DNA of 64,000 nucleotides, from positions 1,488,001 to 1,552,000 of the forward strand of contig KN832875.1 in the NCBI GenBank assembly GCA_000827325.1, written 5' to 3'. A program made the position numbers and the translations under genes. Positions 1-20,614 of this stretch are shown here, piece after piece (within the stretch, counting starts at the first letter, position 1; each line of letters starts with the position of its first letter). The notes under the pieces were generated by a model. It was not told the DNA's origin, ran no database searches, and was given only the letters and a program-made list of their open reading frames with translations. The stretch is from Oidiodendron maius Zn. Lineage: Eukaryota > Ascomycota > Leotiomycetes > Myxotrichaceae.

Positions 1-337
1 GAAGCAAAACCGGCCGGGCCACAGTAGGTAGAAAGGAAAAAAGGAGAAAATGAAATGGCAAGTTTCCGGCAAGATATATATCTCCAACCAGCTAAGGCTG
101 GAGCAGCAAATCCGTAGCCATCAATCCGCCGAACACCCCCAAGCCAGCGCTGAACCATCCTGCAATGCTTTTATGAGACCGTTGTATAACCAGTTGCAGA
201 GACCGGTGATAATTTTCGAAAAAGGGCCGGGTATCGATGTCTATGCAAAACCGAAGATGAAATCCCACTCGTCTGCTTCGTGCAAGCATGAGTCGGTGCT
301 TTACTATGGTACAGAGGAAGGAAACTACTCTCAGAGA

Positions 338-1566
338 TCAGATGCCCTGGTGGGCTCCGGAGGATGACTCGACGACGTTGTCGGATAGATTTATCAAGAG
401 CTGGGCGAGACAGCGCTTGGTAGCGGCGTCATCACGAAGGACAGACGAGAAAGTAGCGTCGCGAAGTGGCTCAGGGAGGCATTGTCGCAAAGCCTCACGA
501 GCGCGAGCATTGTCACTGAGTCTATATCGTCTATCAGTAAAGGAGCTTGCCTCATCAAGTGGCCGCCTTACCTAAGAAAGCAGCGTACAACGTGTTTCAA
601 CAGCCGCGCCGTCTGCTGTTCAACGAGTTGCGAAACCATATTGCTGAGCACTGTACCAACTGCGTAGAAACGCTCGTATGTAGCGCAAATGTAATTCAAT
701 CCATGATCATCCAAGAGGATCTTCTGGACGATGAAGATAGCGACAGTCTTGCTAAGTTCCGAACCCGTCTCCATAATTCGAAGACAGAGGGGAATAATCT
801 CCGTTGTGAGGAGGAAGTTGATGACATCCGACGAATCATTCTTCACGAGGGCTCCGATAACGCCAAGGGAAGTAAGTCGTAGGTATTCGAATGGGCGCGA
901 CTTCGACGTGGTGTTGAGAAACGGATAGAGGAAGAGGGGAATGTGCGCTGCGGTCGTCAGATATCCTCTTCACCGCAGTTGGCTTACATACCATTCAAGA
1001 ATAGAGCCCGAGTCTCATTATGCGACGCGACACATTGCAGCAGGGCTAGTGCATTGCACACTCTGTTTGAAGCCGCAGCGGTGAGCTGTGATGGATTGAG
1101 CAGCGTGTAGACTGAGATAATCTCCTGTAGAAGCGAAGTCATAACACCTATGGTAGGTCAGCGTCTATTCTTATAGGGCTGGAAGTTTAGATATACCAAA
1201 TGAGTGCCACAAAATTAGAGCAAGTTCCGGGACCTGTTCGCGCTTCTTGCTCAGTTCCAGCAGCGCTGCTTCTCGGGTGTCTTCATTTAGCAGGTCTGCG
1301 ATAAAAGCCAGAGTGCGCCTGTTCTCCTCTGTGACATTGTTTTCCATCATGCTTGTATCTTGCCCGTGAGCGGCGCTCAGTGAGGGAACTGTGGAATTGT
1401 GGGTGGCAGCAATCCGGTTATAGTGCTGCTGTTGGGCCACAGAAGCCGCTGCGGCTGCGGCGGCTTGCTGAGCGTGCTGGTGATGGGTCTGCTGGTGCAT
1501 CCATGATGGCTCGCCCTGTGGATTATACTGATGTTGATGTGAAAACACGTGCGATCCCTGAAGCAT
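338..1566 (-). CDS. caf40: CCR4-NOT subunit Caf40/Rcd1 (CNOT9 family)
   Basis: Armadillo-repeat subunit of the CCR4-NOT deadenylase complex, which acts in mRNA turnover and translational repression. Four exons fit: 1566-1197, 1147-992, 947-572 and 521-338. All three introns are 44-50 nt with GT-AG ends, and the join gives 361 residues in one frame. Residues 1-75 are Q/H/A-rich low complexity, the usual fungal extension. The Rcd1 core follows, with hallmark runs [52 protein letters not shown] and [14 protein letters not shown], ending at [11 protein letters not shown] plus a short tail. The length matches fungal Caf40. Sequence and family agree closely, so the assignment is firm. Only the start codon choice within the low-complexity N-terminus is uncertain. 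Confidence 0.95.
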
Positions 1567-2235
1567 GGTGCTGGATTCGGAGGGGGCGAGTGGCCCGAGT
1601 GGTGAAGGAGGTGAGGTGCAAACAAAGGTTGAGAGAAGGCGTGATCAGACTTCGCGCCAAGCGTCCCTATCCTGGCCCTGACTGCTGGGTTGTGTTGCGA
1701 ACAGGGAATGGGCCTGCTCTATGGCTGGCAGTTATCGAGGACGATGGAGGTACTTCGTCGTGCGTAGTGTTGAGGATGAGGAGATATCGCGGAAGATACT
1801 TGTACAGCTACAATTGAGGCGTGGGGATGTCAACTGTCCGCATGCACGGACCACAGTCACGTGTAGCTTTCGGCGGCCACCTATAAAGTGTCGGACATGG
1901 CTAAACCACCATGAATTGCCAGGAAAGACAACGTGGGATGTACGGATATATCAGAGGACAAATACAAGACTTAGGTTGATGGAGGCTGAGTTATTACGAG
2001 TCTAGGTACGAGGACGATTTGTTCCAGATTAGTATTCTTTTTTCACTACCTGCCATATCCTGCAAACTTAAACACTGCCTCGCATCCGGGCATAGAAAAT
2101 TATCCAAATCGTTCTTCTGAATCTGGTTGACACTTCAATACGAGTGTAGATAACAGCGTGTTTCCAATATTACAATCTTTCTCTATGTAGCTGGCCTTTG
2201 CTCCTGTGAAATAGGGTCTAATTCTAATTCTCACC
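1567..2235. other. Intergenic, upstream of caf40
   Basis: No gene or RNA was recognised here. It should contain the caf40 promoter and the 3' flank of the broken permease gene. Confidence 0.5.
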
Positions 2236-3075
2236 CTCTATAAGGTACTGAAGGCGCCAAAAATAGCCTTCCGTTGGACAGAAAGCTGGGCTGCTTGCCG
2301 TCTCTCCCTCTGCGCATATCCACCATAAACAAAGAAGGCGACCACTCCAACTGCCGTGCTCGATAATATGGCTGAGTATCCTGAATGATAGAGAGGAGCA
2401 TCCCAATTTAGGAACGCAAAGGTTGCAATGATGCCTCCAGCATCCAAGGCTCAGCCGATACATCGCTGCATGCAGCCCTGGAGATTCATCAAATACCACC
2501 AAGCGATACTGGCGCCAGCACAAAATACCCCCATTGAAACTAGGCAGACGCCTATATGCTCAACTGAGTAATGTTCCCTTCACCTGTCCTCAGGATAGCA
2601 GGTCCAGTGATGAGAATTGCACATTCCAGGATAGCGAAGTTGAACATGATTGGAATATAGGCAGGACCACACAAAGCCCGAAACCGGCGGCAAAAGGAGG
2701 CACCGAGTGTAATTGGGTCTGTACAACGGAGTACCCGAGAGATTGAACAATTGTAGGAGTTGAATAAAAGAATTCTATAATTTGAAATAGCGTGTGTCGA
2801 CTCACATATCTTTCACCACTTGCTGTAAACTGGGATGAGAATAGCTGGGAAGAGTGGTTAGCACAGTACGGCCACCGACAAGGCAACGGGCTTACAGAAG
2901 CATATGACGGCTGCCAGAATGTTTCTCACATCTTTGAAGAACAAAACATCCCTTGGTGTTATAGATATTGTATGTGATTCACCTGCCTTCGTCTTGGTGA
3001 AAAAGAAGTCCTTCTCCTTTTCTGTTAACCATGTCGCATCGTCTGGAAAGTCAGTGAGAAACAAAAAAGACCTAA
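2236..3075 (-). pseudogene. Allantoate permease (Dal5)-like MFS transporter, C-terminal half, broken
   Basis: The minus strand keeps the second half of an anion:cation symporter-type MFS protein. In order it shows the cytoplasmic loop FLTDFPDDATWLTEKEK, then TIVQSLGYSVVQTQLHSVPPF (the TM7-8 region), then AGGIIATFAFLNWDAPLYH and a final YGGYAQRERR segment. The pieces lie in different frames. An in-frame TGA sits where the frame reads CIG*ALDAGG, the position of the conserved TM10-11 loop. The N-terminal six helices are absent: the adjacent sequence upstream belongs to the plus-strand rhodopsin-like remnant. So this is a truncated, frameshifted relic and not a working transporter. The substrate class is inferred from family resemblance only. 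Confidence 0.7.
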
Positions 3076-3230
3076 CCCAAGTTAGAGTGGTCAAATGCGT
3101 TATTGATTGCTCAGTGAAGAAAGTAACACTAGTGCTATTTTCGGTATTGTCTTTCCGGCCTCCTACATTTCGCACATGCAATGATCACCCTCCAAAGGCA
3201 GTTTCGAACCTTCGCATCTATGTTCTTATA

Positions 3231-4537
3231 ATGGTTGTCGTTGCTCGAATAACCTCACTGCAACTTGGCCGTAACTATTATTTCGCGAATCCTGCATCAC
3301 TAACATATCAGAGCAACACTGCTATTGGAATTAGTGTCGGGCTGACCACCACTCTATTTTCTTTGAAAACATATGTGAGAATCTGGATCAAGCGAACATT
3401 GGCTCTCGAAGAATGTAAGTGAAGTAGTATATATTGCTCGATCCAGCGCTAACTGGTATCTCAGGGCTTTCTTTTATTGCTTGGGTTAAGATTTAGACTC
3501 TGCCACTTGTTCAATCTCTCTGCACTTACGCTGGCTGTAACATAGAAAGGTACTATATCGTACTGCGGAATTATGGGTGCCACCATGGCACGCAATTGAT
3601 GGAGGCACATCTGGGACATCACCATCCCACAAGCTCATGAAACAGCATAGATTAGTATTCCAAGGTGTAGTAGCCTGTCCATACTAATGATTTGGAAAGC
3701 GGTTCAACGTTGCCTCAATCGAGTACGGCGTCATGATCTGTATGACGAAACTTGCAATATTGACTCCATACCGAAGTTTCCTCTCCCAGGCGCTTCAGTC
3801 CGTTTGATATTATCATTATGGTGCTGATAATTATAATAATCCTCTTTTACGGGAGTATCAGCTTGGTGAAAATATTTGAGTGCAATCCAAGTGCGAAAAT
3901 ATTCAACAGGTTGGTCAAATGGACTTGCGTTGATATATTCATGCTTGTTGAACATGAGTGGATATTTCAATACAATTATCAAATTCTTAATCCTCTTTCT
4001 TCCAGGTAGAGCAGTCTGAGACTTGAATATGTCGAGGCAAAAGAAATTAATCGTCGTGCTGGTGTTTACATCTTGCCTATGGGTGCGTTCAAGTTTTGAT
4101 GTCTAGAGTATCAAGCGCCAACGAACTGGCCATAGAGCACTCCGATATTTAGCTTGATAGGATTTATTGTCCGCATTAGTGACAGTTGTAATCCGGACAC
4201 ATCATGGAACCAACCAGAGATCTTGTTGTGGGGTTGAGTTATGCTAATTCAACCCCTGTTACAAGAGCATTGTTAGAATGACGCTTGAACCAGAACTGCA
4301 GAGCTTATGGCGGGTAATCTCTGTCTCTCCTTTCCCGAGCTTGGAGCTCTATTACGAATAAGGCAGCGGAAAGCTGGTCCTAGTGCAAGCATTTTAAACC
4401 GTGACTATAAGAGATCGCGTATTCGAAAGCAGGCAAGTCACGACATGGCAAAGGGCAATTTTCCGAGTGCGGATAATAGGTCGTATCTAGAACTTGATGA
4501 TCATCCAGAGTTGAGGGACGGTGTGTGTGATACATGA
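3231..4537 (+). pseudogene. Fungal rhodopsin-like integral membrane protein (Pth11-like fold), decayed
   Basis: A near full-length relic of the large fungal seven-helix 'rhodopsin domain' family of unknown function. Recognisable pieces in order: NTAIGISVGLTTTLFSLKTYVRIW with LALEE (helix 1), a plausible intron from 3417 leading to WLSFIAW, HIWDITIP, SIEYGVMICMTKLAIL, ILFYGSISLVKIFECNPSAK and TCVDIF, SRQKKLIVVLVF, SDSCNPDTSWNQPEILLWG, and a C-terminal tail FPELGALLRIRQRK ending in RSYLELDDH. It carries several in-frame stops (ARN*WRHIWD, HETA*ISI, RAV*DLNM, LLWG*) and at least two frameshifts. Several stops are single C-to-T or G-to-A changes away from the expected Gln or Trp codon. The DNA around it is AT-rich. 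Family assignment is by remembered motif pattern. Confidence 0.7.
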
Positions 4538-5544
4538 GGTCAAAATTGACTCACATGAAGTTGCGACGAGTCGCGCAGGTGAGCCACGAGTTGTGTAGGA
4601 GAGCCATGAGGCGAGTGCATCTACCTAGAATCAGTATACCTTCAGGTTGTCACACACAAATTCCTCTAGCTTCGAAGGGCAGCAATACGTACCTGGTTTA
4701 GAGCGCCATCCTAAAGGTTGGCAGAGCAATCTCTTCATTTACTCAAGACTCGGCATTTTCCTGTGCTGTGGCACCGCTTTTCAATAACGTAGGTGCTGGT
4801 AACACCCTATGAAGAAACCAAGCCAATAATGTCACACCTAGATGTCCAGGACAGATCTTGTTGGGAATTCTCTAAGCCGCGACGGACGCTACACAGGGAA
4901 GCACTGAATCTTAAGGTAGCTGTTTTAGTTTCAGCTATGCACGAACGACTCAGCTATATCCAACGAATTAAGCACTGCATGAATCCATGCCCCAGCTTTG
5001 CCTGCACTCGGATCTCAAAGCCATGCACTGTGAGGGTTCCAGTAAAGCGTATTAGAGGCTGAAATGATGGTTCCTGAAGAAATGTAGCTCTGCCTCCGTG
5101 TCGACAGGAACATTTATATAAGTAGGAACAAACGTAGACTTATCAATAGAACAGACAAAGCGGCATTCACGCCTTCCATTAATCAGCACCATAATACTTC
5201 GCCTTCAATCCCAATATCAACCATACTCAAGATCGCGCTAGTTGATATGGGATGTCAAAACCCTCGCCAACCTAAAGGCAACAAGTTGGTACTTCATAAC
5301 GCAACTATACAAGAAACAATAACATATTAGCTGCAGTGGATACATCATCTAACATATTTCTAACAGGCAGGAACAGCGGCGAGAACGGAGAACGTGTTTC
5401 TGGCAACATGGCAGTGAGAAAGAACTGTTCTCCAGGTAGATCAATGTTATCAAAGGCATGCAATGCATGCTTGTGAATCGAGACGAGTCGCTAACAGGCA
5501 CAGGGCCAAGAAATATTCATCCCCTTCTCAGTGATATGTATGAA
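4538..5544. other. Intergenic, AT-rich, no gene recognised
   Basis: Short open frames occur, including one at 4793-5062, but none has recognisable protein motifs or splice logic. Nothing else was seen. Confidence 0.4.
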
Positions 5545-6990
5545 CTTCAATGTGACGCTCGGTTTATCTCTGCCAACAAGCGCAATTGAAGCTCTCAACA
5601 CCCACTTCGGCGTACATCACATATTCCCTTATCGGCAGCGGTGTTCATGATAGGTTATTTTCGGACCCATCATCCTCGGACTCATGAGCGAAACATTTGG
5701 TCGTCGCCCGACTTTCTTGTCATCGTTCACGATTTATACTGCCTTCGCGTTTGGTTGTGCTCTAGTTCAGAGCTGTCCTGTCTTCTTATTCTCCCGATTC
5801 CTCACAGGATGCGGTGCAACTGCTCCCCAGATGGTCACCGGTAAGACCGTCCTAGAATTGAATCCATCTCGGCACCTCAAATGCGATCTGGTATTGACTG
5901 GTCAACTGTAAGGGCTTTTTCGCCGACCTATATACTGACCTTGCACCCGGTGGCCGGGCAGTCACGTTACTAGGACTGATATCAAATGTTGGACAACTTC
6001 ATGGACCCTTAATATCAGGCTGCACATCGACAAGTAACTGGAGGTGGCAATTCTGGGCTGCCTTGATCATGGTCAGAGTAAATTGGCCACTGCTTCTCAT
6101 AATGCCAGGTAACATTGATGTAGATCTTCAACGAGAAGTGTTAATGGTGGTACTTTAAAAAATTTCTCTCCTGTCATCTCTGCTCGGCATGCGGTTGAAG
6201 TTAACAACGGTTCCGATGTCGTTGAAGTCGTTGTCACAAGCCAGGAACAAGCGAAGGCGTGGAGACTGAAACTGCTGAAACTTTGGATCTTGACTCATCC
6301 GATTCGTATACTCGCCGAGCCGTTAGTCTTCTTGACAGATCTTATCTTGTGTTACCAATACTTCTTCTTCTTCTGTATTTTGAATAATACCCAATCATCT
6401 TCAAAGGTAGGTTCTCAAATCGTAGGTTGCTTCTGATGGCTTTCTGATAGATGCAATCAGGCACATGTGGCATGACAGATTCCCAAGCAGCTCTAATGTT
6501 CATTCCAAGTATGCACAGCGTGGGACTCATGCTTTAGTAAACTAGCTGACAGCTCTGGCCAGTTGCTATTGGAGCACTCCTTGCAATTCTGGTATTTCCT
6601 TGGTGGGGTCGGTATCTCGAGAAGGCTAAGCAAGCCAGAGCGTTATGGTCAGTGAGTGAAGAATATCGTCGCTTGCCGTTGGCCTGCATTGGCGGCCCGC
6701 TCTTCGCCATATCTGAGTTCTGGCTGGTTCGCGCCTTTCGTAAACAGCATGACATGGCGGGATCATCCATATCCCGGCTAACTTCTCAACTTAGGGTTGG
6801 GCCGCTCGGTCCTCAGTCCACTGGAGTGTTCCCGCACTCTCGGGGATCTACCTCGGTGTTGTCATCGACCTGACGTTCCTGTCGTTGAGTAACTACCTCA
6901 CGGAGGCATACGATATCTACTCGGCCTCTACATTGGTGTCCCAATCCCTTCCGCCAGCAGCTCCAACACGTCTGAGTAGAAAAGGCGGCC
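5545..6990 (+). pseudogene. Drug:H+ antiporter-like MFS multidrug transporter, decayed
   Basis: The plus strand keeps, in order, most of a 12-helix MFS exporter of the fungal polyamine/multidrug type: LPTSAIEALNTHFGV, VFMIGY, GPIILGLMSETFGRRPTF, FLFSRFLTGCGATAPQMVTG, then a good intron (5839-5913) into GFFADLYTDLAPGGRAVTLLG, GPLISGCTSTSNWRWQFWAAL, ILTHPIRILAEPLVF, WWGRYLEKAKQARALWSVSEEYRRLP and HWSVPALSGIYLG with LSNYLTEAYDIYSAS. The signature motif A-like GRRP and motif C-like glycines survive. The frame breaks repeatedly: between VFMIGY and GPII, after the LIMPG helix, around the missing helix following YQYFF, and before HWSVPAL. The last helices are missing. It would have pumped small toxic molecules at the plasma membrane; now it is very probably non-functional. 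Confidence 0.75.
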
Positions 6991-7285
6991 CATCAGGTGG
7001 ATATTTAACGAATTATGAGATACGTAGTCGCATCTCTGAGTATCTTTGCATGATATCTGGGTTGGAACTGGGCAAGGAGTAAAGTGAAATTGTTGAAATG
7101 GGTCATGGATATACGATGTAGTTAACATGGCATCACCTGACCTCGGTTATATTGCTCCAAATGCCTTGTTACCCCTGAATTCTACCAGAATGGCAAGTTC
7201 TCCATTACAGAAATCTTATTCTACCACTGATTCATCCGAGAAAACCAATGCCAAAAAGCGTAGTTTGTTTCTTTCTGATCTATTG

Positions 7286-8284
7286 TCATGGACTCCACTC
7301 CAAACTCACCGCATCATCCGGCTGTCTCCAGACAAACCCTTCCGGCATTTCCACCGCGCGACTCCTCAGCCAATCCTGCAACCTCTCCCAGTCCAGACAT
7401 TTATGCATTGTATTTGAATTTGGCGTCGGATTTTTATGATCACGTACCCAGTTGTAAGGCATGATGCCCGTGTCGAAGTGGCACATCACACCCTGCCGAA
7501 TATAATCAACACAATGCTCATAATGCTGCTCGTACAGCTCCGGCAAGTCAGTGATCTTCTGTCGTACGTCTGAGAATGAGTCGCGATGGTGGTCTTGCCA
7601 TATGAAATGGAGGCAGTGCAATTGATGAGTGCCGACTGTTGCTGCCATGTATCCTCCCCCAACACTGGGAGGGAATTGAACGGCGGTGAGATTTTGTCCC
7701 GCCTGAAGGATGTCTTCTGCAGTTACGGCGATCATGCCGTCTGAGTTAGCAGCAGTTAGTAGTAAGTCCAGCGCTATAATCAGATGTCAGGAACTGACAT
7801 TTCATGGCCGATTGCCATGCTTCCTCGACTTCGGGTGTTGGTGGTCCTTTAAAGGGGCTTCGATACCAAAGAGAACCTTTGAAGCGGGTTTCCACCCAAG
7901 GGGCATGGATGACTGCTTCATCAGCGGGAGCTGCAACAAGTTAGTATAAATATTATTGTAAACTGCTTCTCTTTACTTACAGTAGTAATGATACAATTTC
8001 CAACATCGGGCCGATGAGGGCTCTGCGATTTGGAAAACCAAGGCAAGCGTCAAAATAAGAAAACATATAGTATGTAATACCCAGTGAACGGCCATGCTCC
8101 TACCAACTCGACCGTATCTTGTAGAGACATTCTCTCTGAGATCAAGTTCTTCTGTTGAAGCTTGAGAAGCATCATACTGTGCCAACAAGGCGTCGTCTGA
8201 CTTTGAAGGCATATCGACAAATAGTTGTAAATGGGGATGAAATTCCGGGATGTAGAAGTTTCTCATATTAAAATATTGCATCAT
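7286..8284 (-). CDS. UstYa-family (DUF3328) membrane protein
   Basis: Three exons fit: 8284-7981, 7930-7799 and 7740-7286, with introns of 50 and 58 nt. The join gives 296 residues with no break. Layout: a cytosolic N-terminus containing MPSKSDDALLAQYD, one membrane helix (about residues 65-90, HWVLHTICFLILTLALVF), a luminal FKGSLWYRSPFKGPPTPE segment, and the diagnostic pair of HxxHC motifs, HQLHC and HYEHC, separated by about 35 residues. UstYa proteins act in cyclisation and oxidation of RiPP-type cyclic peptides (ustiloxin, phomopsin, asperipin, cyclochlorotine) and in related pathways; the twin HxxHC motifs are needed for activity. It is the only apparently intact gene in the decayed 2-9 kb block and faces a small secreted repeat peptide about 0.8 kb away. 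Translation could also start at the downstream MPSK Met. Confidence 0.88.
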
Positions 8285-9058
8285 TCATTTGCCCCTAAAT
8301 TATTAATGAACAAGAAGCGGTCAGTGAAGACAGGCTGCAGGAGGTTGAATGTTAAAAGCCAAGGAACCACGACAGAGTCTCATCCAACAATTTGTGTCTG
8401 CGTGATCTCTGTGCTGGCTGTCGAGATCTCTAGCTTGTGATCACGAGAATCTCTCAGTTTCTCATGTAGCTATCCAGTGGGGCATCCGACGTATGACAAG
8501 AGTAAGACGCTCTCGAAATTCCAAGATTTGTCACAGTAGGCTGTATCCATGAGCACCCTGTGCATTCTGTAGCTAAATACGAGTAAAACTGCCTTGCTGT
8601 TGATTTTGAATGACGGCCTGCAACCGAATGCAAATACTACTTTCTGTACAACAATTCAGCACCAGTGAAGTGCCCCAAAGTGACACCATGCTACGTAAAT
8701 CATACCACCATCTTTGTAGTCAGCGAATAGTTCAGATGGAGATAAATCCATTGTACCCCGGATATTCCGCGCCCGAACTCAAATGCCGACCATAAGAGCA
8801 GCTGAGCCGTCCTGAGGAGTACTTGAAGATACCTAAGACCAAGCGCACTAGCACAAGAAGTAAATTATCTGTAACAAGGAAATATCTTGAGTAATGGTTG
8901 CACCACTTGTGAATGGCAATGAGGAGTGAAAGATTGTATCGTCAGTCAAGCAAATAAATATAATGGCCCTGAAGTATCGTCTTATAAATTGCGCAGTAAC
9001 CCATCCAATACCTCACCTATCATCAAGTTATAGTATACAAGAGACATCAACAGGCAAC
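8285..9058. promoter_or_regulatory. Divergent intergenic region between UstYa gene and repeat peptide gene
   Basis: A 774 bp AT-rich region from which the two genes are transcribed outward, so it should hold both promoters. A TATA-like run (aaataaatataatgg) lies about 105 bp upstream of the peptide ATG. No specific regulator site was recognised. Confidence 0.45.
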
Positions 9059-9321
9059 ATGAGGTTTTCTCTCTTCGTCCTTGCATGCATCGCGACTCTT
9101 GCCGCAGGCGCTCCCATCGCAAGACTTGCCAGTAAGTAATCCTCTCTCTACAACGACTCACAATTACCCCACCAGAGATTAACAACTCGAACTTAGATTT
9201 CGAGGTTGACCCTCTTCTGCACATCCGAAACATCGCCGGCTCCTCCTATGCCACTAAGCATTCGAACTTCGAGGCTGATCGCCTCTTCTATCCTGATAAC
9301 AACGAAGGCTCTTCCAAGTGA
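9059..9321 (+). CDS. Small secreted peptide with internal repeats; candidate RiPP-like precursor
   Basis: Two exons (9059-9131 and 9176-9321), with a 44 nt GTAAGT...CAG intron, encode 72 residues. Residues 1-18 form a clear signal peptide (MRFSLFVLACIATLAAG, then APIARLA). The rest holds two imperfect repeats, SNLDFEVDPLLH...GSSYATK and HSNFEADRLFYPDNNEGSSK, each containing FE-V/A-D and ending G-S-S-x-K. A third related unit follows the stop codon. Signal peptide plus tandem short repeats is the layout of dikaritin precursors, which are cut by Kex2-type proteases and cyclised by UstYa-type proteins; a UstYa gene lies next door. Against this, no KR or RR Kex2 site is present and only two repeats are in frame. 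It could instead be an unrelated small secreted protein. Expression is unknown. Confidence 0.5.
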
Positions 9322-9375
9322 GCGAATTTTGAGGCCAGCCCGATACTCGATATGGCAACGAGGGTATCTCTTCGC
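9322..9375 (+). repeat. Out-of-frame third copy of the peptide repeat, beyond the stop
   Basis: Directly after the TGA the DNA reads A-NFEASPIL in the same frame, and after a one-base shift YGNEGISS. Together these mirror NFEADRLF...DNNEGSS of the preceding repeat. The unit aligns base by base with a few mismatches and small indels. It looks like an old repeat copy cut off by the stop and a frameshift. Confidence 0.5.
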
Positions 9376-10039
9376 ACGCTACTTGAGCTTTGTCGTTGTA
9401 TCTCTCCTGCCATGCCTCGGAGTTGGGAACGGACAGAGAAAGAAAGGCACTTGTTGCTGTAACTTGCCCATGGTAGTGGGTAGATGTAGCAGGTAGCAGA
9501 ATCGAATCGCGTCAAATCAAGCAGTATTCTGATCGAAATGTTTGCTTGGGTTAAGTGTATATTCTACCTGCACTATCTCGACTCAATTTTCTCCGTCTCG
9601 TATGATCAGTTTCCAGTCCAATTTTTTATCAGGAACCTTTGAAAAGGTTGCATAAACGAATGCGTGCCTTCTTTCCACTTGGGAGTAATTCACTCAAACA
9701 TAATTTGTCATGCCATGGCCACAACTCAAATCACGCTGAAGATCAATTATACCATGATCTCGAAATTTTGGAAAGAGATGAGAGGTGAGGCTCCCATTAT
9801 GTGCAATTAGTAGCTATTTGGCTTGCTTGCTCAGCTCGTTACGACTATCTTCTCGCATCCTCCACATACATCCAGCTCCATGAGCTCAAACCCTGAACGC
9901 AGAATATGTTACGTGCTCCAATGCTCGCTCCCAGAGAACAAAAGGAAATTCGTTCCGCCCATCAGGCTCTTCACTACTTTCCTTCCTGCGCTTTCAAATG
10001 CTTTCTACTCGTGACAATTATCAAATAAGATTCGGAGAA
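9376..10039. other. Intergenic, no gene recognised
   Basis: 3' flank of the peptide gene and of the kinase gene, which converge here. Short frames have no recognisable motif. Confidence 0.5.
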
Positions 10040-13000
10040 TTAGAGTTTGAGCTCTCTCAAAATCTGATCAGCCATATTTTTATACTGCCAGGTCCCACCC
10101 GCCAGTCTCTTAAACTGAATGCCGTGAAGAGAAAGGAGGGGAACTTTGACAATTAAAATCTCAAATTCGAGGATCATGCTCCCGCCCAACTCGCTCTGGA
10201 CATGCGTGCTAGTCTCCCCGACCGCGCGTCCCGAAGGGCCGTGAGCTTCACGTCCTATGCTCTCCTCTGAAGCCTCAGAGTCGGTGTAGGCCGTGTCAGT
10301 GCGACCGCGGCGAGAGGGTCTAGGTAGCTGAGGTGATTTTTCGGCGTCACGGAAATCGTCACGCTCTCGGTCTCCTCCGCCCATAAAGCTACCCAAGCTT
10401 ATCTTACGACGATGGCCAGGCGTCTGGTTGCCATGGCTGCTGGGAGGCGGATCGACAACTTTCTTGAGGTCGATGCTTGGAGTGTGTCGACAGCTGAATC
10501 CACCCCGGATTTCTGTATATTCAACACGTAACTGCTTCATGACCCTGATTATATCCGTTCGAATTACATGGACTGGTTTTGTCGACGTGGTGGAGACGCT
10601 GAAGAGGCCTTTGAGGAATACCGGCTTCACATTCTCGGCGCTCTCGATACGGTCCGTCGACATGCCACTAGCGTCGCCTAGTTCACCATCTGTCTCCTCG
10701 GGGACATTTGCCTCTCTCTGCTCCTCTCGTCGTGCTCGTCTTGCTTGGATACTCTCCCTCCGCGCATGGCCAAGCGATTTGGCTCTCATGGTCGCAGCTG
10801 CCCTAGGATTAAGGTGGGATTCATCGCGTGCTGATTTTTCATTCGCCGTCGAATTATCAGATCCACTGGTGGCAGGCGGTGCAGGTTCTTTGTAAGTCAC
10901 ACGAGGAGGACCATCCGCGGCCGTTCTCCGACTCTCCCGTCTTCGAAACTCGGCCGAGTTAACACTCGTCGATCTTCCAAGGCCATTGGCACTTCGCGCG
11001 TTATCGGCAGTTCCCGGTGGCGTTAAGAGGTCGTGCTCTCGGGGATGATTTCCTGCAGACCATCCAGTCGGAGGAGCATCTTCGGTTGCGCGATCCCGCG
11101 TTCGCCGTCCACTGAAGCTTTTCCTCAGAGGACCTTGCTCATTGGCGGCTTGCACATTTACCACTGGGGGATGAGATCTATCAGGAGGCGGTTCTTTGCG
11201 TCGCCTGGTACTGAACCGTCGCAGAATTCCGGCAGCCGTGCTCTCCTTGCGAGGCGGCTCTTGGGGTGGTTCGATGATTGCGGGAGATGTCGGGCCACTC
11301 GGTCCCGAGACTCGTAGGTTCTTGACACCTTCCACCACTTCGTCTTCTCCGTGGGTTCGGGCCCGCGGTCTCGATCGTCCTCCTGTTGCATTCTCACCCG
11401 GCATCTCGTAGGTCGCGGCGTTCGTATGTGCCGGTTTCGGCACAACGATCTCGGCCATCTGAGGTGGCGCTGCTTCGACTATCCGAGTCGTGCTTGATGT
11501 CACCGGGTTCGCTGCGCGTCGGTCACGGTCCTGCTTCTCCCTGACAAGGTAATATACCGAAATTAGAGGATGAAAGGCATTAGTAGGATCATTGCCGAGG
11601 GCCAAAGCCTCTGAGCTTGGGGCCGTGAGGGTGTCCCTGCTATTCGTAGAGCTCCGCCGCTTGTAAAAGTCGAAATTGAATGCCCTCTTCTTCTCTTGAT
11701 CCTTGGGCGTGGTCTGGGACTCCTTCTCATGGAGAGCCATTCGCACGGCCCGCTGATAAGCCTGCGACTCGATCACCTCAGTCAACTGAGATTCGATGAC
11801 GCTGGGAGGTCCAAAATCGAAGCCAGTCATGGCCTGGATAACCACAGGATCCAGAGGAAGTTGAAGGGGTTCACGATGTGGCAGATAATTCTCTGGCGGC
11901 GTCCCAAAGCCCTTGGTCATCCAAGGGTGGTGCATTATCTCCTGCAGACTGGCACGCTGCTTCGGGTCTGTGACAAGCATCCGCGAGATGAGATTCTTAC
12001 ACTCTACAAGCAAATCAGTATAGCCATGAGGGAGGGAGAAGTGCAGAGCAACGCACCAGGCGATAGCCAGTTGGGGTAGTCCACAATGCCTTTCTTAATT
12101 TTTGCATGCAAGGCGGGCATGCTCTGGTCGTCAAACGGAACCTTTCCACAGACCAGAACATAGAGCACAATGCCAAAGCTCCATACATCCACCTCGGGGC
12201 CGGTATAAGCCTTGGCCTGCAGGAGCTCCGGCGCAGCGAAGTATAGACTTCCGCAGAAAGTCTTGAGATGGCTCTGAGGAGCAAAGAGATTGCTGAGGCC
12301 GAAATCGATGATCTTGATATCTCCTGTCTTGCTAATCAAGATGTTTTCGATCTTGAGGTCTCGATGGACAATGCTATTGCGATGGCAGTAGTCGAGCGAG
12401 CTCGCTATCTGTCTGCTGAACTTCCTCGCCTGCTTCTCCTTTAACCGGCCATGCGAGATGATATAGTCAAGCATCTGACCGCCATTGACGTACTCAAAGA
12501 GCATGTACCAATGGTACGTCGTTCGCACGACGTCTCGCATCCCGCATATGTATGGATGGTCGAGAAGGGTGACGATGGCGGCCTCTCGCGCGGTGCGGAC
12601 CTCCTTGGAGTGATCAGCCCGCTCTCGGTCAGCTCGGCTCTGGTTGTGACCTTCGTCCGTCGAGCCTCGCGGCACGATCTTTACTGCAACCTATCCCCCA
12701 GTCAGCGCCGAAGACTAGACGCGCCATGGTTCAACCAGATACGTACCTGTTCTCCACCCTCCGCTCTCCGCGCCAACTTGACCTTGCCCATGCTGCCCGC
12801 TCCGATTGTTTTGCCCAGGACCCAGTTGCCTGTCTGCGCGGGTATCGTCGTTCTTGACTTGCTTGAGGACTTGTGTTTCGACTCGATGGCTGTGACCACG
12901 GGGGCAGGGCCCCCACTGTTGGCAGCATGCGAGGGCATATTTTCGGTATAGCGACTGCTCGATCGCTGGTGACCGGGGGCGCTTCTTCCTGACTCGGCGC

Positions 13001-13280
13001 GAGACGGGGCAGAGGGGTCTCTGCTTGGACTCCGCCCGGATGCGTCCGTCACATTCGACGTCTCGTAGCTGGCGGGTGGTGCGGCCTCGTCTCCAGCCCG
13101 GTGGCGCGACGACGAAGAGCGGTGATGATTCGGGTTTGCCGGTGCTGGATTGCTTGTGGGAGCAGCCGGAGCCGGCCTCGTTCTGGACGACTGCGATCTG
13201 CTTGGGGTCGATTGGGACGGAGCCCGTCTGGAGCTGCTCCGATCTATGGTACTGGGAGATACGGAGGTTGTCGTGGCCAT
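10040..13280 (-). CDS. kin1: Kin1/Kin2-type (MARK/PAR-1 related) Ser/Thr protein kinase
   Basis: Three exons (13280-12747, 12690-12057, 12003-10040) join in frame to 1043 residues. The first 150 residues are Ser/Pro/Arg-rich and disordered. The kinase domain starts near 157 with [15 protein letters not shown]; the first intron falls just before VAVKIVPR, which carries the ATP-binding Lys. The catalytic HRDLKIEN lies near 286, DFGLSN near 308, and an APE-equivalent AAPELL follows. After the kinase come [22 protein letters not shown] and about 550 disordered residues. The C-terminus is a KA1 domain ([26 protein letters not shown]) of the lipid-binding kind. Kin1 kinases act at the cell cortex on polarity, exocytosis and septation, and in yeast on ER-stress mRNA processing. 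All catalytic residues are present. The assignment is secure at family level. Confidence 0.93.
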
Positions 13281-14374
13281 GCTCGCCAGACCAGGCCGTG
13301 ATAGAAATCAGCCGAGCTGTGAGGAGCGGCGTGCCCCTTCGCGGCGTGGGAACCGTGGCAGGGAGGCTGGCCGCGTCACTCTCCGAAGGGCGGGTTGGGG
13401 CAGAGAGGCGGCGTGCTGGTTCCTCTGCAGACGGTGGTGGTCGTGCGAGGCCGTGAGAGACGGTGTGACTTAAGGTGAGGGAGGTGAGGTGAAGTTAGGT
13501 GAGGGCTGTTCGACTGTTGTTGTCCGGGGGCCGCGCAAGGGAGGACGGCGGAAGGGGTGAAGCGCAGGGATTGGGCCGACTGGCAGGCTACGCCGACAAC
13601 AGCGTCCACAGTCGCGCACACAGGATGGAGAGGGGTGGCGTGCAAAGGGGCATCGATGGAGGCGAGCTATGGCGGGAGGGCCGATTGAGCGGGAGAAGGA
13701 GCAGAATCGCAGCTGTGGGAGGTCGAGGTTTGCAAGAGGGACGGCGGGTGGTGGTGGCCGAAGCGAGACAGCTTTCGGGCCTGTGTGTTGCTGCCAGTCC
13801 GCCCGCCTTTGACCACGGGGTACCTGCAGCGACTTGCTGGCCGACACGCGTGCCGGCCAGATACGGGTACTACGAGGTAGCTGGGCTGGTGGCGGTCCAC
13901 CGAGATGTGATTTCTGATATGTGCAGCGACTATTGGTCCTTGTGCTGGGCGGGCGCCCTCATCTGGAGATATACCAGTGGGGATAGGGGTTGCTGCTCCG
14001 ACCACCTGCCCGGCACGCGAGTACCGACACCCTTCTGGAAGCGTCGAGGGGCGCGCGATGCAATGTGAAGCTCCCCCACGAAGGGATCTACAGCTCCCGT
14101 GGTCTGCCACGGTGGGATGGGGACCTCGGTGTGCCTGAGCGTCCTCGAATCCCTACAGAGCGCGATTTCCATCACGCTGCAGGTGATGTTGGCCGCGGTC
14201 GAAGGAGCGATCTCGCGTGGGTGACGGATCGCTGGCCCGCGCTTACCCGCCAATGGCAGCGCCGCCACGACGGGCCCAAACTCTCCTCTCCAACGAGGCT
14301 GAGAGAAAGCTTCTTCCAGGCAGGGCTGTACTCAGTCGTACCGCTTCCCATCCTCTCTCGCCCATGTCTTCAGC
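13281..14374. promoter_or_regulatory. Divergent promoter region between kin1 and the G-patch gene
   Basis: About 1.1 kb of GC-rich sequence between two genes transcribed outward. It holds long chance open frames on both strands with no protein motifs. No defined element was recognised. Confidence 0.5.
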
Positions 14375-16517
14375 ATGTCAGGCAAGCGGTCGCGCGCAGC
14401 CTACGAGGCCGAGCTCCAGGCCCAACAGTCGCCTTTCGTCGTGTTCGGGACCGCTCTCCCTCCCCAGGATCCCGACGTTCGTGATGACGGCTCATACATC
14501 CCAGTGTGGAAGCAGGAGGTGCGGGACGAGAGGGGTTTGAAACGTCTCCATGGCGCCTTCACAGGCGGTTGGAGTGCTGGGTAGGCTTCCTAAAGACAGT
14601 GTGCATGGCCGTGAGCTAATTGTGCTTCCTAGATACTTCAATACGGTCGGTTCGAAAGAGGGCTGGACGCCCTCGACCTTCGTATCCTCCCGCTCGAATC
14701 GAAAGAAGGATGCTCCCGGAGCAACCCAGCAGCGGCCGGAGGATTTCATGGACGTGGAAGATATTGCCGATGCGGAAGAAGCACAACGGGTGCAGACAGC
14801 GGCCGGGTTCGCTGGCCTTGGATCTACCCAAGATTCCATTCAGCGCGGCGGCTTCATGGACGTATTTCGAATAGAGGGAGAGACGATGGGGGCCAAATTA
14901 CTGAAAAAGATGGGCTGGAAAGAAGGCCAGGGGGTGGGGCCCAAGGTACGGCGAAAAGCACGCCTGGATGGTGTGGAACGCCCAGATGATGCCTCTACGA
15001 TGCATCTGTTTGCACCAGAGAATACGAAGATGATTAGTTTCGCCAAGAAGCATGATCATAGAGGTCTTGGGTGCGGTGGAGAGGCGAAACTCTCCCATAC
15101 TGAGCTAGGGTCGGACGAGGTCAAGTCAGAAAATGAAGACGACGATCGGCCAGCTCTGTTTGCCCCGGCCAAAGCCAATAAGAAGAAGCCCAAATCTGGA
15201 GGGATAGGAATTGGTATTTTGAATGATACTGGCTCAGATGATGAAGATCCTTACGAATTGGGGCCTCGAATATCATACAATAAAGTCATAGGAGGAGACA
15301 AAAAGAAGAAGAAGGCCGGCGGTGGAGTGATGAACCCGCTCCTGAAGTCAACACCAGTCTTCATCTCGAAGAAGACTGCCCTAGCAAAGGCCAGTCTACG
15401 AAGATGCCATGACGGACGACTGCCGATTAACGGCTTTATACTGAGCAGCACAGATGAATTCTCCACCGTCATCCAAATATCGACGAAATACATACCACCC
15501 AAAATCCCTGAAAACTGGACGTCGTCAAAAACACCAAGATCTGGCTCCCAGCATGCAGCCTATCTCTCCACGGCAGAAGCGGCAAAGGTATCCAAGCTAG
15601 ACCCCAAATCTCGAGCCGCCATCCTTGGTGAAGCATCTCTTCCAGGAAAATCCGTCTTTGACTTCCTCTCTTCTGCTGCTCGTGACCGTCTCGCCTCTGC
15701 GTCGGGAAAGACCAATCTCCCTGTTGCTCTTAATGAGATACCTAATGGATACGCCATGACAGATGAAGAGCGTAAACGGGAGCTCCTGGGCCAAATCCCC
15801 AAAGTCGAGAAGTACATTGCGGATGCTGCACTGAGCAGGGGGGCGAGCGGCTTCATGCCATATGGCGATGACCTGCCTAAACGAAGCCGCTACCGAGCGT
15901 ATCTGGAATTCCAGTCCGGAATCTCTCCCAACCCACCTGAATTTGGCTCGGGGATGAGTAAAGATGATTGGTTGAAGGAATTGCGCGAATTCGCCAGCTG
16001 CGCGCAGATCTTCAAGCCCATGTCTGGAATGATGGCAACGCGATTCACGTCCTCTACTGCGCCGAAACTCACATCAGATACTCCAGACTCGAAAGACCTG
16101 CTAAGCAAGCCGACACCGAAGCCTGAAGATCCCGCGGAGCAGGCCGCCAAAGTAAGCATGTACGGTCCTCTAACGAGGAGCACGAGCTCCTGGTATCCAA
16201 CCAGATTGCTTTGTAAGAGATTTAACATTAAGCCACCCGCTCATGTGCAGCCAGGCAGTACAGAGCACGATAACGAGGCCCCTCGAAATATGGCAGAAGA
16301 GCTAGTTTCCAAGAGTGCAATGAATGCGATGATGATGCAGTCTGGAGGAGGGGAGCTCTGGAAGGACAGCGTAAATTCAGAGGAACGCCCTGTGATTCCC
16401 GAAGTTAAGAAGGAAGAGGTGGTGGTAGATGCTGACAAAAATGAAGCACTCGAGGGCCAGAAGGCTGGAGAGGCCGTGTTCAAAGCTATTTTTGGGGATG
16501 ACAGCGACGATGATTAG
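14375..16517 (+). CDS. G-patch domain protein, GPATCH1 family
   Basis: Two exons, 14375-14580 and 14633-16517, joined across a 52 nt intron, give 696 residues. Residues 1-110 form the DUF1604-type N-terminal region ([21 protein letters not shown], then [22 protein letters not shown]), the mark of the GPATCH1 group. A G-patch follows near residue 150 ([23 protein letters not shown]). The remainder is mixed, with [40 protein letters not shown] and RFTSSTAP matching conserved blocks, and ends in an acidic tail DDSDDD. GPATCH1 proteins associate with the spliceosome, G-patches commonly activating DEAH helicases. Starting translation inside the second exon would delete the conserved N-terminus, so the upstream ATG is preferred. 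Confidence 0.9.
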
Positions 16518-16834
16518 ATTGATAGGAGATAATAGATAATCTGAGGGCACAGACAAAATCAATGTAAGACTCCTTGAGCAGCTTGCACATAAAAGGCCAC
16601 CCTGGTTATAAATACTTCAAATGTTGTTAGTGTAAATTACAATGAAAATTATCACGAATATCTCCTGGCCCATTTTGCCTGAGGAGTGCCGTGGATGATC
16701 CAGATGTGTCGCGCGGTCAAAAGGGGCCCTGTATTTTGATCTAACCGTTTCCAGGCACATCATGCCTGGAATTGAACCCTCGCGAACCTGAACATCAGAT
16801 AACAGACATAACAAGACAACCCCTTTCCCAATAA

Positions 16835-18450
16835 TTGAGGTCGCCAGACGCATATCACTCACAAAACAGACCCCGACACTCAGCCATCACGTTGTCAGAT
16901 ACGCAAGAGGCCATCGGCGGTCCGTCCGTCGAGCTGGACATTGACGACAGCGTCGGCCACGCAACGAAGCTGGAACAGGAACTTCTGTCTCGAGAGCAGT
17001 CACCCCCTCCGCAGTACCCTTCGTCCGAGGCCTCGGGATCGAGCGCTCCAAATCCTCGACCTCCACCGTTCTCGTCACTCTACAGGTCGACCGCCGAGGC
17101 AGTTGAGGCATACAAGACAGCGGTCACAGAGGCTGGCGCATCCGCATCCGTCCCAGCGTACGCACCTGTCGCAAGTGAAGCGCTCCCATTTCCTGCGCCC
17201 ACTCCAGACGTAGTTGCAGAGACCAAGGCTGCTCTACCGAAAGACACAAAGGGAGAATCCTCCAAGGAGGACGACGAGAGTGAACCACCTCCCGCATATT
17301 CAGAAGGCTCAAGCCCGCTCGAGTCCTTCACGTACGTGATGGCGGCCGCTGGAGGAGCTGCGAGTATTATTACTCAGGTGCAGCAGGGTGGTCCACCACC
17401 AATCAATACTCTTGGAGGTATGTGTGATGCAAGCACGCCGAAGAGCCAGGCTGATGGGATTCTAGATGTCGGTGTAGATGAGAACATTACCATGGACCTC
17501 CGGTACGATACGCTGGTGGTGTAAGGAGATTCAAGTGCTAATGTGATCTTGACAGGGGAACGAGGTTTACACTCTCCCGCGATGAGCTCCTAACCCTCCC
17601 TGAATTCGTCCTCCTCTCACTCTTCCCCAACGGCCTGCTCCCAGACGGGCACCTCAACGCATATCACGAAGGCGACGCCTTCCAGGTTGATGTTCGTGAT
17701 GTCCAATATACTCGCAAGATCTTAGAAAATATAAATTGTTACATAGCTGACGTATCCATCAGTACGACCCCGTGTCGCTCCAGTACATGCTCGAGTTCTT
17801 CCGCAACGTTGCGCAAACGATACCCTCGGGCCCGAACTCACCCTCCAGCAGCGGCGAGGCGGACGCGGTGCCTATCGAGCCCATCTCCGGCTCGGCGAAG
17901 GAGATGCTGCAGGACAGGGCGGGGATCATCGTGTTGAGGGAGGACCTGGACTTCTATGTGATTCCACCATATGCGGGCATCGAACAGCCGGAGATGATCG
18001 AGGTGAAGAGGGCGGCGGGAAGAGCGCTGTTAAAGCAGGACGGCATCTTCTCAGGGCTGAGGCGGAGCGACGAGCCGGGGACGACAGAGCAACATCTGAT
18101 TGAAATGTTGACAGCTGGGTAAGCTTCCCGATCAGTTCAATTGGCAGCTCTAATATACAGGCAGAGGATTCAACCGCAACGACAACTGGGGCCACCGGGC
18201 TAATGAACCCAACAAGGCCGTTATCTGCAGCTTAGCCTTGGCACGCCTGCGCACTGACATCCGCGGCAACGAGATGGGCAACAACGCGGTCGGCATGGCG
18301 CAGAAGCTGCTGCTCTTCTGGCGTAAGCCCGCGCGCCGATGCTGGTGGGAGGGTGTCGAGCTCGAAGGCGTGGACGGTGTCGAGGGCAAGCTCAAGGTGT
18401 GGATCCGAAGAGTGTGGACGCTGGAGATGAGCGTCATCGGGCTGCGTTGA
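16835..18450 (+). CDS. Whi2-like BTB/POZ domain protein (start unresolved)
   Basis: Four exons join in frame: up to 17502, 17556-17691, 17763-18118 and 18165-18450, giving about 480 residues. The N-terminal 215 are Pro/Ser/Ala-rich and disordered. A BTB fold follows (NITMDLRGTRFTLSRDELL, LPEFVLLSLFPNGLLPDG, YDPVSLQYMLEFFRNVAQTIP), then EDLDFYVIPP and a C-terminal block GFNRNDNWGHRANEPNKAVI with LARLRTDIRGNEMGNNAVGMAQKLLLFWRKPARRCWWEG, typical of fungal Whi2 homologues. Yeast Whi2 restrains TORC1 under low amino acids and is needed for stress responses. Intron 2 has an unusual GTTCGT donor. The frame opens right after a TAA at 16832 with no ATG before 17338, so a short upstream exon or a sequence error must supply the start. 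Confidence 0.8.
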
Positions 18451-19455
18451 CGCAAGCATATCTGCAACTATATCACCTTTCTTTTGTTGTCTTCCTGTCT
18501 TGTGTAGAACATATTCCCAAGCCTATCCAAATCTCAGGAGTCAAGCGTTTATTGATGGATTTTAATTTGATGCTGTCCCTTGTTTTGCGCACCTTACGTG
18601 CAAGATTATACCTACCTTACAGCCGTTCATGCGGCATTTCAGCACCACGCCCGCGCGTGTAAAGGAGTGCTCCAGATGCTCTTTCATCTTTTGGGGATGG
18701 GTGGAAACCGGTTCGTGGGGGTTTATGTTGTATATGCCGAGAATCTCGGGGTGACATAGAAATCAATCAATATCTTACCCAGAACGTTGTTTGTGCCTGT
18801 TTGCCATGGTATTAATCTACTTGTGGTAGGTGGTGACATTTTGCCTTGTTTGGGTATATCACGTTGAGATTAATGCTATTAGAAAGGATGTGGAAATGCA
18901 TTAGTTGCACTATCACATTGCCCTCTTACATACGCCCCAAATTCAATGACCGCTTCAATTTAACATCTAATTATATCTCCTAAACAGAGCTTCAAATATG
19001 TCCTCATCCCTCCCCTCCAACATGCAAAGCAGCCAATGCATATTATACCCCTTATCCCTGTCGTGCTAGAGTACCAAAGGCATCGTAGATAAGATCACTA
19101 TTGCGTCCCGCTCCATAGGTAATTAAGCTTAAGCGAAGAACTCCCGTGAATCCCTATCTGCGATCTGCGATCTGGTGTGCTGTCGTATATTCTCGGATTC
19201 GTGCAATCTAGAATGCAGCGTATGACGATTCGAAATAGGAAGGGGTTCGTCTCGGAACTTTGTTAAGTCCGGCCGGCAACATTTCCACCCCGCATAAACC
19301 TGATACGTGCTTGAACCACGATCGAGAAAAATGTAGATAGCAAAGCTGTTCCTAGTCCTACGTCGAACCTAACAAGGTAGATAGAAAGCCACTCATCTCT
19401 CCATCTCCGTCCATCTGATTGAATTGCTCATTCTTCACAGCTGCCCAATCTTACA
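18451..19455. other. Intergenic, no gene recognised
   Basis: About 1 kb of AT-leaning sequence, holding the 3' flank of the Whi2-like gene and the promoter of the hydrolase gene. No repeat or RNA was seen. Confidence 0.5.
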
Positions 19456-20614
19456 ATGTCATGTCCCGACTGCTTCACGGGCCACGTTCACGCTGGCACC
19501 CCCGCCGGATCCGAGATCACGCTCGCGGGGCTACCGACATATGTCTCCCGGCCGCAGAACGCGGGAGAGCCTAAGGGCGTGGTAGTGTTCATCCCGGACA
19601 TCTTCGGGTGGGCGTTTGCGAATAACCGATTGCTGTGTGATGCGTATGCCGAAAAGGGAGGGTTTGTGGTGTATTTGCCTGATTTGATGGGTGGTGAGTC
19701 AAGAGTTATCTTCTGCTCTAGGCCATGAAGTTTGAATTTTATTCGCCTGGTTTATAGATATGGGTTTGTTTATATAGGTGATTATTGTTATGGCTATATT
19801 GCAGTTCAGATGGAAGAGAGGGAACGAAAGGGACTGGACTGAATTGAGTTTGGCTAATGAACTTCTGTATGAGAATAGGTCGAGCTCCACCATTTGAGCT
19901 TTCAGCTCTGATCGACAAGATAAGGAATCCGGCGAGTTGGACAATCACACTACTCTGGAAACCAATCTGGGTGTTTCAGGTACTGGACTGTCTCTATTAT
20001 CTCACCTACCTCTTCACTTACCTATCTGCTCCCTTTAAAAGAGCAATGCCGTTCAGGGGCATTCTGGTCGCACAGAACACAGCTAACCCTTCAAATAGGC
20101 CGCCTCGCTCCTCATCCCCTTCTTCGCCACCAATAGGCAGTCTGTCGTCCTCAGCCGCATCATCAATATTATCACTGCCATTCGCGCATCCCCGGACAAC
20201 TCCGCCCTCAAGGTCGGCACCGCCGGGTTTTGCTGGGGCGGAAAATACGTCTTCCTTCTCGCGCACGACAAACCTTCATCACGTATCTCCGTCAACGGGT
20301 CGCTGCAGCCGCTGATCGACTGTGCGTTCGCGGCGCATCCGTCGATGCTCAGCGTGCCCGCGGACGTAGAAAACGTCCGACAGCCGATGAGCGTAGCGGT
20401 GGGAGATACAGACATGGCGATAAGCACAGAGGGGATTCGAACTATGGAGACGTTACTGAAGAAGAAGGGCGAGGATCATGAGGTCGTCATTTTAGACGGT
20501 GCGAAGCATGGGTTCGCGGTGCGGCTGGACCCGAAAGACGAGCTGCAGAACAAGTACGCGGACGTGGCGGAGAAGCAGGCCATTGCATGGTTCACGAAGT
20601 GGTTGGCTAAGTGA
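19456..20614 (+). CDS. Dienelactone hydrolase-family protein
   Basis: Exons 19456-19693, 19879-19979 and 20099-20614 give 284 residues of alpha/beta-hydrolase fold. The two introns are long for this window (185 and 119 nt); the second has a good branch site (ctaaccct). N-terminal CPDCFTGHVHAG and PKGVVVFIPDIFGW are typical of fungal DLH proteins. The catalytic triad is visible: nucleophile Cys in GTAGFCWGG (near residue 156), Asp in VGDTDMA (near 215) and His in AKHGFAVR (near 249). Members hydrolyse enol lactones or other esters; many fungal copies have no known substrate. Probably cytosolic, with no signal peptide. The family is secure, the substrate unknown. Confidence 0.88.

Follow-up and report, generated by a model that had tools for sequence, protein, structure and literature searches.

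A probable decayed dikaritin-type locus in Oidiodendron maius, with an intact UstYa gene facing a broken repeat-precursor gene

Organization of the locus

The window analyzed here is the whole 64-kb stretch C6:1488001-1552000 of the Oidiodendron maius Zn genome (45.9 Mb, 58 contigs), and all coordinates below are counted from its first base. Four consecutive 2-kb bins near its left end (2001-10000) have a GC content of 43-47%, with the next bin at 55%. This low-GC stretch is flanked by an Rcd1 gene on the left and a KA1-domain kinase on the right. It contains a weak Fung_rhodopsin fragment, pieces resembling an MFS transporter, a single UstYa (DUF3328) gene and a small peptide gene with tandem repeat units. 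The features are listed below, where P0092 denotes a database relative of the peptide with two types of unit, A and B.

386-1151, minus strand: Rcd1 gene (six-frame Pfam scan)
3800-3943, plus strand: weak Fung_rhodopsin fragment (23.7 bits, under the cut-off of 27)
5663-6950, plus strand: MFS-transporter-like pieces in three frames (25.5 bits, under the cut-off of 33.4)
7286-8212, minus strand: UstYa/DUF3328 gene, intact, 272 aa, best splice model with two introns
8212-7981, 7930-7799 and 7740-7286 (including the stop), minus strand: exons of the UstYa splice model
7613-7627, minus strand: first HxxHC motif, residues 160-164 of the protein model
7511-7525, minus strand: second HxxHC motif, residues 194-198 of the protein model
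8213-9058, no strand: divergent intergenic stretch, 846 bp between the two start codons
9059-9321, plus strand: repeat-precursor gene, probably decayed, with ATG at 9059 and stop at 9319-9321
9059-9131, plus strand: exon 1, hydrophobic and signal-peptide-like, donor at 9132
9132-9196 or 9132-9175, plus strand: intron, in two splice models, followed by exon 2 up to the stop
9199-9261, plus strand: unit 1 (type A), ending K-H where P0092 has KR
9262-9321, plus strand: unit 2 (type B), ending K-stop where P0092 has KR
9322-9383 (about), plus strand: third unit (type A), frame-broken, behind the stop (tblastn of P0092)
9322-9351 and 9351-9383, plus strand: head of the third unit, in frame, and its tail, in another frame (tblastn of P0092)
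About 10043-12627, minus strand: kinase with KA1 domain (Pfam scan)
Right of the kinase: DLH match (Pfam scan)
About 14.5-14.9 kb, also right of the kinase: DUF1604/G-patch gene (Pfam scan)

An earlier note, made from the sequence of the window, had placed a divergent small peptide gene about 0.8 kb from the UstYa gene; the distance is 846 bp, and the 72-residue peptide described there corresponds to one of two splice models. The intervening stretch is presumed to be a shared promoter region, and a sigma-70 promoter and terminator scan of it, a type of scan ill-suited to fungi, returned nothing above shuffled sequence. The MFS-like pieces lie just downstream of the UstYa gene, are either degenerate or intron-rich, and possibly represent a former cluster member. 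They are not classed as a sure pseudogene, given that introns could account for part of the frame changes.

The same note had seen no second UstY gene, tyrosinase or peptidase, and for UstYa, tyrosinase and S41 peptidase this holds across the full 64 kb: only one of the 70 own-genome PF11807 matches falls inside the window, together with none of the nine PF00264 (tyrosinase) and none of the three PF03572 (S41 peptidase) matches. Six-frame Pfam scans of positions 1-19802 (E 0.001) found no methyltransferase family, and beyond 19.8 kb the searches covered UstYa, tyrosinase and S41 peptidase.

The UstYa protein and its relatives

The 272-aa model is an intact DUF3328 protein (PF11807) with two HxxHC motifs, at residues 160 and 194, as had been claimed. 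Its main exon scores 111.2 bits (E 1.4e-30) in the genome search and 103.5 bits (2e-29) in the six-frame window scan, both above the curated PF11807 cut-off of 25 bits, and the columns of both motifs are invariant across a 24-row alignment. Hydropathy of the window protein (best hydrophobic 19-mer beginning at residue 45) and the predicted model of the orthologue P0001 (mean pLDDT 75.8; long helix at 28-75, motifs on helices 159-174 and 190-210) together point to the DUF3328 layout, with one predicted N-terminal transmembrane helix and a helical C-terminal domain carrying the motifs. Among solved structures, none resembles UstYa by sequence (one match, E 1.3), and none of 71 fold matches to the P0001 model reaches E 0.001. 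The cyclochlorotine hydroxylase CctR, also a DUF3328 protein, shares the N-terminal transmembrane stretch and the HxxHC(x)nHxxHC arrangement, which in CctR binds two coppers and loses activity when His or Cys is replaced by Ala (PMC12435403). By analogy, the window UstYa is a predicted copper-type oxidase. CctR acts on a non-ribosomal peptide (PMC12435403), whereas the partner of the window UstYa is proposed from the neighboring gene.

UstYa relatives make up 91 of 381 candidates at E 0.001 or better. The phylogenetic tree comprises 88 rows, namely the window protein, 61 database proteins and 26 of the genome's own 40 paralogue models, many of them long-branched and flagged by a program warning. 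The window UstYa sits within a 53-row clade (support 100/99), set apart on a long branch, that includes none of the 26 own paralogues in the tree, the nearest of which (L030) joins weakly (84/47). The genome's paralogues share 21-31% identity with the window UstYa where alignments cover at least 80 residues; in alignments of about 50 residues the identity reaches 39%. Judging by organism names, we take the clade to span Dothideomycetes, Sordariomycetes, Lecanoromycetes, Eurotiomycetes and Leotiomycetes. With two members in Xylaria multiplex (P0011 and P0027), it falls short of being strictly single-copy. The search for relatives with genomic context gave 17 pattern matches in GTDB genomes and 24 in viral contigs, none confirmed by tblastn. 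Relaxed constraint on the window protein gained no support: it differs from P0017 at 18 sites, with 11 changes of its own against five in P0017 (p 0.21).

The peptide gene and its multi-unit relative

The peptide begins with a signal-peptide-like exon in which a hydrophobic 11-mer starts at residue 5. Acceptor 9175 yields the 72 residues of the earlier note; acceptor 9196 yields 65 residues and aligns the NFEVD that then opens unit 1 with the NFEAD of unit 2. P0092 cannot choose between the two, because its translation reads on through the intron-like stretch. The two imperfect tandem units reported earlier are real, beating both residue and DNA shuffles: their score is reached by two of 2000 residue shuffles of the 72-aa model, none of 5000 of the 65-aa model and none of 2000 dinucleotide shuffles of the DNA. 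Tandem Repeats Finder at score 30 does not report the repeat. Two weak points conceded at the outset, the missing dibasic sites and the presence of only two in-frame repeats, apply to both splice models (72 or 65 aa).

A first homology search, limited to proteins 0.55-1.75 times the query length, returned two candidates, neither at E 10 or better, and missed P0092 because of this length gate. When the 40 exon-2 residues before the stop were scored inside longer references, one protein out of two candidates matched. This single protein, P0092 (E 7.8e-23), has 182 aa, is 73% identical over those 40 residues and comes from a metagenome contig of 1585 bp. It contains five units of two alternating types in the order A-B-A-B-A, split by four KR sites, one at each boundary, with 18-21 aa between sites. 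Type A units carry SSYAT before KR and SSYAS at the end of the protein, and type B units PS or SS before KR. Homologues with more repeats and KR sites were what the earlier note had proposed to look for, and P0092 is one.

Searched against the window by tblastn, P0092 aligns with exon 1, both units and the stop, and then with a third unit whose head is still in frame and whose tail has moved to a different one. This frame-broken unit behind the stop was overlooked in the earlier note. Its head and tail each exceed all of 5000 dinucleotide shuffles when compared with P0092; compared with units 1 and 2 instead, the stretch behind the stop does not stand out (326 and 397 of 2000 shuffles). The broken unit matches P0092 at 15/21 positions, and the in-frame units at 16/22 and at 15 and 16 of 19. 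The dead unit is about as like P0092 as the live ones, which weakly suggests, on this one relative, that decay of the precursor is recent. Searches of the genome with the peptide and with P0092 each gave two matches, all at the window locus.

UstYa/precursor pairs elsewhere in the genome

The 70 exon-level PF11807 matches were grouped by hand into 36 loci including the window. Of the other 35, 28 were sampled, fetched as 32 stretches, and seven were left out. A script detected dibasic-split repeat precursors in 11 of the 32 stretches, corresponding to 10 of 28 regions (L027 and L028 overlap), and the addition by eye of those at L033 and L037 brings the count to 12 of 28 (L012, L018, L020, L023, L024, L027/L028, L030, L033, L034, L035, L037 and L038). 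The UstYa gene at L035 was found by Pfam and missed by the analysis's own profile. The twelve precursors have units that differ from one another, and by its sequence the genome is rich in loci of apparent ust-RiPS type. UstYa genes without such a partner are also common here, with no KR-repeat precursor found in 16 of the 28 fetched regions.

As in the window, most of these precursors are divergent from the UstYa gene (7/10 by script; 9/12 with the two found by eye), the exceptions being L020, L035 and L038. If one in four is taken as a rough null, binomial p values are 0.0035 for 7/10 and 0.0004 for 9/12. The pairs therefore share with the window a UstYa gene and a small repeat precursor, mostly head-to-head; they differ in that their precursors have dibasic-split repeats, absent from the window copy, and their UstYa proteins share only about 21-31% identity with that of the window (alignments of at least 80 residues). 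Together with P0092, this recurring layout lends support to the dikaritin-type pairing that the earlier note had suggested.

When P0092 was compared with the 12 other precursors of the genome, only that at L037 stood out (score 43, 3/500 shuffles), a weak result after 12 tests. The L037 precursor (L037:4072-4368) has EADPIFY units faintly like the EADPLFY-type strings of P0092. A likeness by eye between P0092 and the L030 precursor fails (374/500 shuffles). Separately, two regions, L014/L015 (C17) and L016/L017 (C1), contain several UstYa genes each; L014 pairs with L017 and L015 with L016 in the tree (both 100/99), the pattern that duplication of a single cluster would leave, and the script found no KR-repeat precursor in either region.

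Comparison with known systems

By definition, Kex2-processed repeat proteins (KEPs) have three or more repeats, each 8 aa or longer, that lie between Kex2 sites (PMC7329392), counted here as KR, KK, RK and RR. The window peptide is not a KEP, because it has two units in frame, the third lying only behind the stop, and lacks a dibasic pair in either model; P0092, with its four KR, looks like one. Among the 7878 KEPs surveyed, 1758 (22%) lie next to a DUF3328 gene, and two unit types in one precursor are frequent (PMC7329392). KEPs beside DUF3328 genes (ust-RiPS; Umemura 2020) resemble the window in having a small precursor with a signal-like N-terminus, tandem units and an adjoining DUF3328 gene, and resemble P0092 in having KR-split units of two types within one precursor. 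The units may be of a new core type, as the earlier note had proposed: among the 12 other precursors of the genome only that at L037 shows a marginal resemblance, and neither FYPD nor SSYA occurs in the survey's main text (PMC7329392).

The dikaritins ustiloxin, phomopsin and asperipin-2a likewise combine a UstYa-type oxidase carrying two HxxHC motifs with a repeat precursor that has a signal-like N-terminus, and the asperipin-2a cluster also has just one DUF3328 gene (PMC7329392). The window differs from these systems in lacking a tyrosinase and an S41 peptidase, in its broken precursor and in the units themselves. A five-gene definition of dikaritins, as quoted in PMC12048977, comprises a repeated-core precursor with leader, a tyrosinase, a methyltransferase, several DUF3328 genes and a transporter or peptidase. 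Of these, the window holds real repeats in a broken precursor gene and, as transporter or peptidase, only the MFS-like pieces at 5663-6950 and no S41 peptidase; it has a single DUF3328 gene and no tyrosinase, and no methyltransferase family turned up in 1-19802. Under a looser definition, quoted in PMC12048977, the DUF3328 protein is the class-defining enzyme, and the window has such a protein with two HxxHC motifs. No relevant report of decayed dikaritin precursors was found in the open-access library searched.

A probably decayed precursor beside an intact UstYa gene

We consider it likely that the locus is of a decayed ust-RiPS/dikaritin type, in which UstYa stands head-to-head with its own Kex2-processed repeat precursor and the precursor has been broken. 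In the fuller form represented by P0092, the signal peptide would direct the precursor into the secretory pathway. There, in the lumen, its tyrosine-bearing units would be oxidized, and probably crosslinked, by the membrane-anchored copper UstYa, and cleavage by Kex2 behind every KR would release short peptides of two related types, A and B. That UstYa works together with P0092-type precursors is suggested by the neighborhood of the two genes in one genome. The window precursor, being short, with no dibasic cut, a stop after unit 2 and a frame-broken third unit, most likely gives no normal product. The missing cleavage sites should matter, by analogy, because in the nearest studied case, that of ustiloxin B, about 0.35 of 7 mg/L remained once kexB was deleted (PMC4740483). 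The earlier note had spoken of a small or shrinking cluster; the stop, the two lost cleavage places and the broken third unit bear out the shrinking and speak against a working minimal locus. RIP as the cause of decay has no clear signal, with TpA/ApT at 0.66-0.78 in the four bins of 2001-10000 versus 0.47-0.86 across all 32 bins.

Alternatively, the shortened precursor may still work, with UstYa modifying a fused two-unit peptide that is freed after removal of the signal peptide and trimmed of its C-terminal lysine, with no Kex2 cut. The signal-like N-terminus, the open frame running to a stop that falls exactly at a unit's end, and the intact UstYa are as this would require, and a survey of lichens describes UstY clusters with repeat-less candidate precursors, for which a single core is suggested (PMC12048977). 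Against it stand the KR sites at all boundaries of P0092, the broken unit that follows the stop and the requirement of ustiloxin B for Kex2-type cleavage (PMC4740483), and we regard it as unlikely. In a form of this reading that we find improbable, the two-unit precursor works independently of Kex2 and is freed whole, the broken third unit being a trace of a change from multi-core to single-product.

Survival of UstYa next to a broken precursor would also be expected if the enzyme acted on another substrate and the adjoining peptide gene were unrelated or a long-dead leftover, the pathway never having formed or no longer existing. The UstYa clade is deep, common to many ascomycetes and distinct from the genome's other UstYa proteins sampled in the tree, the 16 fetched regions without a KR-repeat precursor fit such a role, and DUF3328 enzymes also modify non-ribosomal peptides (PMC12435403). 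The recurrence of head-to-head UstYa/precursor pairs in the same genome counts against this account, which appears quite improbable. That the stop and frame break are sequencing or assembly errors in an unbroken precursor is highly improbable even though the sequence rests on one assembly, as about 130 bases would have to contain three separate errors, each of another kind (K-H, stop and frame break), next to a UstYa gene that reads cleanly. If the locus is decayed, the intact UstYa reflects either decay that has not yet reached it or retention for another substrate.

Significance

P0092 points to a two-type precursor family, for which no counterpart was found in this genome beyond the window. 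The biology is that of a known kind of pathway in a fading example, and the locus would illustrate one way for a fungal RiPP locus to fade, the precursor being broken with the oxidase still intact. A genome-mining rule that requires three KR-split repeats would overlook such a locus, and one that requires only UstYa would take it for a working one.
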